This document shows, one piece after another, positions 9,774 to 12,298 of a stretch of 64,000 nt of DNA. The notes under the pieces were generated by a model. The model did no database searches, was not told where the DNA came from, and saw only the letters and a program-made list of their open reading frames with translations. This stretch comes from Methanosarcina barkeri MS (GTDB taxonomy: Archaea > Halobacteriota > Methanosarcinia > Methanosarcinales > Methanosarcinaceae). The DNA lies in NCBI RefSeq assembly GCF_000970025.1, contig NZ_CP009528.1:62001-126000 (forward strand). Direction: 5' to 3'. Each line of letters opens with the position of its first letter. The first letter of the stretch is position 1. The translations under genes were made by a program, and so were the position numbers.

Positions 9774-10343
9774 ATGAAAGAGCTGAAAATTCTTGTTGTA
9801 AATAACTACGGACAATTTTGCCATCTCATTCACCGGGCTGTTCGAGATCTTGATATGGATACGAAAATAATTCCTAATACAACGCCAATTGAGGATATCC
9901 TGGCAGAGGAGCCGGACGGACTGATTCTGAGTGGTGGGCCGGAAATGGATAGGGCAGGTTTATGTTTCGATTACGTCCGGAAAATTGATCTTCCTATTCT
10001 TGGAATCTGTCTCGGGCATCAGGCAATTGCCCTAGCATATGGAGGACATGTTCATGCAGGGAAAAAAGGCGGGTATGCAGAGGTTGAGATAGAAGTGCTC
10101 GAAGAAGACGATATTCTGCGTGGACTCGGACCCAAGGCTACAGTGTGGGCTTCCCATGCAGATGAGGTTGCCGTTCTGCCTGAAGGCTTTATCCATCTTG
10201 CTCGGTCTGATATTTGTGAAGTTGAAGCTATGCGCCACCCAACAAAACCAATTTACGGTGTACAATGGCATCCTGAGGTTTCCCATACAGAGAAGGGAGA
10301 AGAACTGCTTACCAACTTCCTTGAAATTTGTGAAAAATATTAA
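9774..10343 (+). CDS. guaAA: GMP synthase, glutamine amidotransferase subunit
   Basis: 189 residues, the usual length for the separate archaeal GATase subunit. It releases ammonia from glutamine for the PP-ATPase subunit that converts XMP to GMP. The class I triad is present: Cys79 in GICLGHQ, His166 and Glu168 in WHPEVS. The ATG follows AAGGA at good spacing. The synthetase subunit (guaAB) is not in this window. The next 130 bases downstream are the left part of an inverted-repeat cassette. Confidence 0.97.
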
Positions 10344-10374
10344 GATCGATGTTAATTATTGACATTAACAATCG

Positions 10375-10844
10375 GGCTTTGTAGAAATCCTCTAAATTTT
10401 GATGTACTTATTATTGATTTTAGTAGGATTTCTACATAGTAACAATGCAAAAAAATTAAAGTCAAATTAGACTTAACATAAATCATGAATGTAAAAGAAT
10501 TTATTAAGCCAACGAAACAAAAAATCTATATTCTTATTATCTTAATAATAGGTTTGAACATTTTTCCCATTATTATTAAATTCTTTTCCACAATTTTTAT
10601 CGCCAGGATTCTTGGTCCAGAAAAATATACAACTTTCTTGATTTTTAAAAGTACTACTATCCCATATATTCTAATTACAAACGTAATTTATTTTTTATGG
10701 ATTTATTTTATCGTCTCTATAATTGTAAATATCAGTAAAAAGAAATCTCTGCAAAAATCTTAATACCTACTTAATATCCTAATCTACTTAATGTCCTAAA
10801 CATGAATTAGTTTAAAATATTTGAATTAGGATTTCTACATAGTC
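10375..10844. mobile_element. 470-bp inverted-repeat cassette with 8-bp target duplication
   Basis: The ends are 17-bp inverted repeats, left GGCTTTGTAGAAATCCT (10375-10391) and right AGGATTTCTACATAGTC (10828-10844), matching at 15 of 17 positions. The element is flanked on both sides by the direct repeat AACAATCG (10367-10374 and 10845-10852). An extra copy of the right end lies inside at 10425-10441 and is also followed by AACAAT. There is no transposase. The only gene is a small membrane protein at 10485. It is either a non-autonomous element mobilised in trans or the remnant of a larger insertion sequence. Confidence 0.6.
10485..10763 (+). CDS. Small membrane protein inside IR-bounded cassette
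   Basis: 92 residues starting at an ATG with no clear Shine-Dalgarno. The start MNVKEFIKPTKQKI is followed by a hydrophobic stretch (~15-37), a polar turn with ILGPEKY, then a second and probably third hydrophobic segment (~50-82) and a basic tail KKKSLQKS. The EF-KPT-KI opening recalls short two- or three-helix membrane proteins of archaea that begin the same way; no function is known to me. Composition is very AT-rich compared with neighbours. It is the only coding capacity between the inverted repeats, so it may be cargo or a captured host gene. Confidence 0.55.
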   Translation: MNVKEFIKPTKQKIYILIILIIGLNIFPIIIKFFSTIFIARILGPEKYTTFLIFKSTTIPYILITNVIYFLWIYFIVSIIVNISKKKSLQKS

Positions 10845-10966
10845 AACAATCGACATTGTCAATCGATATTAACCTTAGGAACAAAATGTTCCTTAAATTT
10901 AGAATTATAAAAGAAAAATAAACGCAAATAAACACTATAATAAAGATAAATAAGATATTCGGGATA

Positions 10967-12298
10967 TTACATCCCGAGTCTTTTCTTCATCATTTTCTGA
11001 ATATTGAACTTTCCACCCCTGAAGCCTTTTAGAGCTGTCTGCATGGTTTTGTGGTATTTCAGAAGCTCCCTTACTTCTTCAGGGCTGCAGCCTGAGCCTC
11101 TTGAAATTCTTTTGATCCTGGAGCCACCTATGAGCTTGGGGTCATTCATTTCTTCTTCTGTCATTGAGTCCATGATTATCTTGTAATTCTTCATCTTGTC
11201 ACTTGTAGCCTGGAACATCTCATCTGAGAGCTTAACGCCTCCCATTCCGCCCATTCCCAGTGGCAGCATGGACATAATCTGTTTAAGAGGGCCCATTTTG
11301 TTCATGGCTTCAAGCTGTTTGTACATATCCTTGAGGGTGAAGCGCCCCTGCATCAGGGCCTCTACATTTACGTCTTCTTCACTAAGGGTTTCTTCAGCCT
11401 TTTCCATTAGGCTTTTAAGGTCTCCCATGCCAAGAAGCCTTGAAATGAACCTGTCAGCTTCGAATTTTTCAAAATCTTCCGGCGTTTCCCCCACGCCGAT
11501 AAAGGCAATAGGAGCTTTTGTTTCGGAAACGGCAGACAGGGCTCCGCCTCCTTTTGCAGTACCGTCAAGTTTTGTTATGATAACGCCTGTAATTCCTACG
11601 GAATCATTAAATGCATGCGCCTGCTGGCTTGCCTGCTGTCCTATACCTGCATCCAGCACCATGAATTTGTGGTTTGGCTTGGCAACGGCGTTGATCTGTT
11701 CCATCTCCTCTATCAGATCGGATTCAAGAGCATGCCGGCCTGCGGTATCCACAATTTTCACGTCGTATTTTTCCAGGGCTTTGAGTCCGTTTCTGGTGAT
11801 TTCGACAGCATCTGGATTGTTTTCTTCTCCATAGAAAGCTACATTGAGTTTTTCACAGAGAGTTTTAAGCTGTTGATATGCGCCAGGTCGGAAGGTATCT
11901 GCGGCGACAACTCCTGCTTTGAGTCCTTTTCTCTGGAAGTAACGAGCAAGCTTTGCTGTACTGGTAGTTTTTCCGCTTCCCTGAAGTCCCACCATCATTA
12001 TAATCTGCGGCTTGAGCTGAATTTCAGCTCCTTTGCCGATAATTTCCATCAATTCTTGGTATACGATGCGGATTACGTGCTCCCTCGGGTTCATACCTGC
12101 AGGAGGGGCTTCTTTCATTGCACGCTCTTTGATTCTCTGGGACATTCCCATAACAAGTTTTACATTCACATCGGCCTGGAGCAGAGCCCGCTGGATATCT
12201 TTTACTACTTCATTGACCGTACGCTCATCAATTCGCCCCGCGCCGATCAGCTTCTTGAGCGCCCCCTGTAAGGAGTCTCCAAGTTTTTCCATTACCAT
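10967..12298 (-). CDS. srp54: Signal recognition particle 54 kDa protein
   Basis: 443 residues, normal for archaeal SRP54. It is the GTPase that binds signal peptides and 7S RNA and docks with FtsY. The N domain occupies ~1-90. The G domain has the P-loop [10 protein letters not shown] (~104-113), [15 protein letters not shown] and [10 protein letters not shown]. The Met-rich M domain (~295-443) contains the flexible [11 protein letters not shown] loop and the RNA-binding [12 protein letters not shown]. Start alternatives are two ATGs two codons apart. It is monocistronic with a TATA-containing leader of about 110 bases. Confidence 0.97.

Follow-up and report, generated by a model that had tools for sequence, protein, structure and literature searches.

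A probable mobile insertion cassette with IS5-family ends carries a small membrane-protein gene in Methanosarcina and Methanococcoides

The 64,000-nucleotide stretch of Methanosarcina barkeri MS DNA analysed here (the window) contains a 470-bp transposase-free element (10375-10844) that is very probably a mobile insertion cassette (MIC), in which a small membrane-protein gene lies between two MITE-like hairpins that have IS5-family ends, and the whole moves as one unit. Five copies of this cassette, 454-470 bp long and of the same layout, occur in two genera and at four unrelated sites, namely the one that the host (G000) shares with a second Methanosarcina genome (G004) and three in Methanococcoides (L094, L095 and L120). 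The first-pass annotation had suspected a non-autonomous element that carries a small membrane-protein gene, and this idea is now supported by the additional copies, by empty sites and by insertion sequences (ISs) that share the ends.

At the window site the cassette is bordered by 17-bp terminal inverted repeats that are identical at 15/17 positions (GGCTTTGTAGAAATCCT on the left, 10375-10391, + strand; the complement of GACTATGTAGAAATCCT on the right, 10828-10844, - strand). Both outer ends abut the octamer AACAATCG, whose left (10367-10374) and right (10845-10852) copies match exactly and constitute an 8-bp target duplication; coordinates and sequence comparison confirm these repeats and flanking bases as initially described. 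Inverted-repeat pairs that match at 15 or more of 17 positions are by themselves not rare in such an AT-rich window, which holds 32 of them, compared to 11-29 per simulated window in three first-order Markov simulations used as a chance control. Only the cassette's own pair among the 32 has an exact flanking 8-bp repeat, and this combination was found in none of the three simulations.

The flanks of the cassette consist of a degenerate 13-bp tandem array (AAYAATCGAYATT), the left portion of which (10344-10366) is part of the insertion target, and because of this repetitive setting the octamer is weaker evidence by itself. The 13-bp register is continuous across the site only after removal of the element together with one octamer, and this, like the empty sites of Methanococcoides described below, argues against a chance origin of the octamer from the array. 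The array continues on the other side of the element (10853-10879) and is also present in L005, L006, L008 and L011; its copy number varies strongly in close relatives, where it lies between amidotransferase and SRP54-like genes. In the window, the gene to the left of the site (9774-10343) encodes a class-I glutamine amidotransferase (PF00117), and the gene on the other side at 10967-12298 (- strand) presumably encodes SRP54, a name that we gave it by reading its sequence.

Among the 31 genomes of the genus set (the host and 30 others), the window site is filled in the host and G004 only. The G004 copy is 94% identical over the region and is flanked by the octamers AACAATTG, the counterpart of the left copy in the window, and AACAATCG. 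Wherever both flanks could be located together in the remaining genomes of the set, the intergenic region lacks the element; some of these empty sites carry longer repeat arrays, and the gap of L011 contains a run of N. A protein search of the genus set (E <= 0.01) did not detect the cargo ORF outside the host and G004, and a scan of GTDB species genomes returned one relative of the cargo, in Methanococcoides seepicolus (75% amino acid identity). There the ORF belongs to a 457-bp copy of the cassette (L094, in G126) that includes the left end, the inner end, the ORF and the right end; its neighbour is an unrelated gene, which we take from its sequence to encode a nucleotide-sugar dehydrogenase. 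An order-wide search identified two more copies, of 454 and 458 bp, at separate sites of a single genome (L095 and L120, in G121). All five copies can be aligned over their full length, and the similarity breaks off exactly at the inverted repeats.

Orthologous empty sites were sought for three of the four sites (the window site, L094 and L095) and exist for all three. At the L095 site, G120 and G127 read GAATGATCTTCAATT, as opposed to GAATTATCTTC-element-CGATCTTCAATT in the filled state; the single octamer TGATCTTC of the empty site is thus represented twice, as TTATCTTC and CGATCTTC, around the element, so that this comparison, of a kind that the first-pass annotation had proposed as a refuting test, shows a duplicated octamer and does not refute transposition. 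At the L094 site, the empty sequence ATGTGAATTTCC of G127 and G128 compares to ATGTTAAATTT-element-GAAAATTTCTT; here the empty target is one base shorter, probably as the result of a later deletion. The Methanococcoides octamers are decayed, with matches at 6/8, 6/8 and, in the case of L120, 3/8 positions. The empty sites of Methanococcoides are free of the tandem-array problem and establish that the unit transposed as a whole. The same data make it hardly credible that an ordinary chromosomal gene came to lie by chance between two independently inserted MITEs: each end does form a separate hairpin, and MITEs that share these ends are frequent, but the hairpin-gene-hairpin unit recurs at four unrelated sites and the empty sites lack the gene and the hairpins together, a multi-site comparison that refutes such an arrangement.

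The cassette has a compound architecture, made up of a 67-bp hairpin, the ORF and then a hairpin of 85-100 bp. The left, MITE-like hairpin (10375-10441, + strand) is 67 bp long in 5/5 copies, and its RNA-fold z-score is -6.3 in the window and -3.3 in M. seepicolus. The right hairpin (10745-10844, + strand) is decayed in the window (z-score -0.7) and stable, with a length of 85-87 bp, in Methanococcoides (-4.8 in M. seepicolus). Its degenerate inner arm (10745-10761, + strand), which overlaps the final codons of the ORF, is better kept as GGCTCTGTAAAAATCCT in M. seepicolus (L094 3261-3277); a tandem duplication of 16-17 bp lies within the same hairpin (10767-10799), part of which recurs in a stand-alone MITE of ~143 bp in G125 (L186; 93% identity over 55 bp).

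This anatomy also accounts for a third copy of the end (10425-10441, - strand), which the first-pass annotation described as followed by AACAAT and interpreted as a smaller element or a nested insertion. The inner end copy is real, but AACAAT overlaps its last base, and the sequence that actually follows is ACAATGCA. Since the octamer match at this position is 3/8, there is no second target duplication, and the lack of an octamer repeat and the constant 67-bp spacing in all copies speak against nesting; the third end is instead the inner arm of the left hairpin.

The one substantial ORF of the cassette (10485-10763, + strand; 279 bp) encodes a 92-residue membrane protein with two predicted long helices, and no match to a transposase family was obtained, in keeping with the original description of this protein as the sole gene product. 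Searches of Pfam, NCBIfam, PHROG and PADLOC assigned the cargo protein to no significant family; a Fijivirus match with an E value of 0.08, below its cut-off, was taken as chance. An AlphaFold model based on a two-sequence alignment (mean pLDDT 75, pTM 0.43) suggests, with low confidence, a protein of two long helices (residues 3-55 and 59-91). Amino acid identity to the window ORF is 93% in G004 and 74-76% in the Methanococcoides cassettes. Homologues without the ends also exist (67% amino acid identity in G124, 44-46% in G166 and G163, and a partial one in G149), but at locations other than the window site, the place where the first-pass annotation held that they would count against mobility. 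Between G124 and the cassettes, DNA similarity is essentially limited to the gene, which could be an old cassette stripped of its ends.

Between the two genera, no part of the cassette is as well conserved as the ORF (84-85% nucleotide identity versus 66-79% in the non-coding parts), and its frame is open in 5/5 copies, with no internal stop or indel. The corresponding values for the two Methanosarcina copies are 97% for the ORF, 87% for the left hairpin, 94% for the right part and 98% for the short stretch that precedes the ORF. The conservation and integrity of the frame argue against the cassette being an internal-deletion derivative of an IS with an ORF that is a chance frame, as do the cargo homologues that lack the ends and the locus of the L120 copy (L154), where the match is to the membrane query rather than to the transposase; this origin is highly improbable, even though pairs with the same ends in G144 and G155 (435-494 bp) are deletions of just this kind, with transposase remnants. 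The L154 matches likewise led us to reject the cargo as a transposase remnant.

Selection on the cargo is less clear-cut. The cassettes of the two genera differ by 17-23 amino acid changes versus 21-27 under a simple neutral expectation (P 0.04-0.12), only a slight deficit, and the number of changes relative to the G124 homologue is clearly below the neutral expectation (P 0.0005-0.0075). The dN/dS of the cargo is 0.3-0.5 by NG86 versus 0.6-1.1 by YN00; these estimators disagree, so that the ORF, although it has stayed open, would be at best weakly constrained between genera. A frame that is open in all five copies would also suit a membrane protein that, rather than being a captured passenger, is a working part of the element and, for example, stabilises it or modulates the host. 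This proposal concerns the role of the gene and is compatible with the mobile-cassette model; it is unlikely, given that end-less homologues exist and that the gene is missing from the many other elements bounded by these ends. The cargo tree is compatible with one capture and subsequent spread between genera, with a fork that is not firmly supported.

A full-length IS with the ends of the cassette, which had been suggested as something to look for, is present in the host genome and in relatives. The host element is 1006 bp long (L042), has the ends GGCTCTGTAGAAATCCT and encodes a 313-aa transposase that matches NF033579 with 224 bits (cut-off 140) and PF01609 with an E value of 7e-20; by these profile matches, the presumed helper is an IS5-type DDE transposase. 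It may belong to the ISH1 subgroup of the IS5 family; the duplication observed is 8 bp long. G005 contains at least about 20 near-full, near-identical copies of a ~1008-bp IS, and both Methanococcoides and a third genus of the family have relatives of the transposase, most of them with 50-60% amino acid identity.

The ends GGCTYTGTAGAAATCCT are common to the cassette and to the IS copies L042, L069, L124 and others. Exact 8/8 duplications flank eight IS copies (L069, L124, L125, L127, L129, L134, L135 and L142), and because these stop short of nine bases in register, 8 bp is the target length of the IS family; the MITEs L070 and L077 also have exact 8/8 duplications, and the octamers that flank the full IS of the host genome match at 2/8 positions. 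Since ends and 8-bp duplications are shared, the cassette was most likely moved by the transposase of a full IS copy, which a resident IS with matching ends probably supplies in trans.

In the simplest history, the small gene would have become enclosed, probably in a single capture event, by two adjacent MITEs, the outer ends of which would then have worked as a single transposon. An IS5-type transposase from the full copies would bind these outer ends and insert the cassette elsewhere through an 8-bp staggered cut, and the cassette may have passed in this form between Methanosarcina and Methanococcoides. Some vehicle is needed for transfer between genera, and the copies of the two genera resemble one another more than they resemble the end-less gene of a Methanococcoides relative; it is nonetheless very unlikely that the cassette is a compound MITE that owes its spread chiefly to recombination, plasmids or viruses instead of an IS5-type transposase, considering that the borders and target duplications are typical of transposition and that plasmid and viral searches returned neither the cassette nor its gene. 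One exact 17-mer end is present in each of ten viral contigs; in one of these (IMGVR_UViG_3300035042_000067), it lies beside a related transposase fragment (L214 9001-9318), which makes this contig a possible vehicle between hosts.

The mobile-cassette model places the element next to a type known from bacteria. Bacterial MICs carry qnr genes (PMC5444012, PMC3913671), as exemplified by the qnrS2 cassette of the Aeromonas plasmid pAC3 and the qnrD elements of Proteeae (PMC3129680, PMC5444012, PMC3913671), and a cognate transposase can activate them (PMC3129680, PMC5444012, PMC3913671). Like them, the archaeal cassette has IS-type ends around a passenger gene and no transposase. Its inverted repeats match those of an autonomous IS, the full-length transposase ORF of which is present in the host genome; it encodes no transposase of its own; its passenger gene is unrelated to transposition, with end-less homologues in G124, G163, G166 and partly G149; and its target duplication has the length of that of the cognate IS (8/8 in the window and 8/8 in eight IS copies). 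As far as sequence can test them, the cassette therefore has the features of an MIC. Unlike the qnr MICs, it is archaeal and chromosomal, has IS5-type ends with a hairpin at each end and carries a membrane-protein cargo.

With MITEs that have the same ends, the cassette shares these ends, the 8-bp duplication, the lack of a transposase and the relationship of its right hairpin to a stand-alone MITE; unlike MITEs, a class without coding capacity, it carries a 279-bp ORF with independent homologues. Neither is it a composite transposon, which would be flanked by two full ISs, for its ends are hairpins of 67 and ~85-100 bp without transposase. The ~1-kb IS5-family ISs of Methanosarcinaceae have the ends and the 8-bp duplication in common with the cassette, but encode a transposase, which the cassette does not. 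Class 1 integrons located between identical MITEs in Acinetobacter, as cited in PMC10969869, resemble it in that two short non-autonomous elements bracket genes; compared to these blocks, the cassette is much smaller and occupies several sites with empty-site counterparts. A literature search of partial coverage returned no paper on an archaeal MIC. The element type is already known in bacteria and is here well supported with comparative evidence in archaea, as a clear case of a gene moved solely by ends, which spans two genera and includes orthologous empty sites. This case indicates that the IS5-type elements of methanogens can spread host genes unlinked to a transposase, in cassettes that annotation relying on transposases misses.

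When 186 genomes of the order were searched for exact pairs of the ends at a spacing of 435-494 bp, one further coding cargo came to light, a protein of 110 aa (counted from a TTG start) with a CGGC domain (PF08821, E 1e-25). Its element, of 489/490 bp, occupies one orthologous site in G121 (L143 341-829; G121:C1:310040-310528) and G126 (L144 359-848; G126:C136:4258-4747), with an exact 8/8 octamer, GTTATTTT, in the latter. Other pairs in this size range were rejected as cargo carriers: apart from the deleted ISs of G144 and G155, with their transposase remnants, the G110 pair is non-coding and that of G013 (L167 645-1088; G013:C4) consists of two MITEs with these ends around non-coding DNA, the compound arrangement of the cassette minus its gene. 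The existence of two different cargoes allows for, but does not establish, a general tendency of these ends to carry genes. We regard as rather doubtful the broader notion that IS5-type ends form a general gene-capture system in Methanosarcinaceae, in which MITE/end pairs repeatedly enclose small genes (for the membrane protein, the CGGC-domain protein and perhaps others) and ferry transposase-free cassettes from site to site and from genus to genus. Such a system would be the archaeal equivalent of resistance-gene MICs, and selection would maintain its cargo.

The IS copies themselves display some additional features. Inside the IS, the IS5-type transposase has no stop codon, and its frame crosses the terminal repeat (ending RISTEP or similar) to a stop that is supplied by the flanking DNA 1-14 residues later, so that C-termini differ among copies; this is the case for L124 (1389-2396), L069, L125, L127, L134, L135, L141 and the host-genome copy L042. 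In L141 (1389-2524; G005), a MITE that shares the ends of the IS comes directly after a full copy, and each of the three borders carries the octamer CTATATTT; it looks as though the target duplication of one element had served as the insertion site of the other. Finally, L148, L150 and L158 (G121:C1 near 800, 2145 and 709 kb, respectively) contain near-identical 592-aa proteins, named from their sequence as presumable group II intron reverse transcriptases, inside split transposase genes of the IS family.
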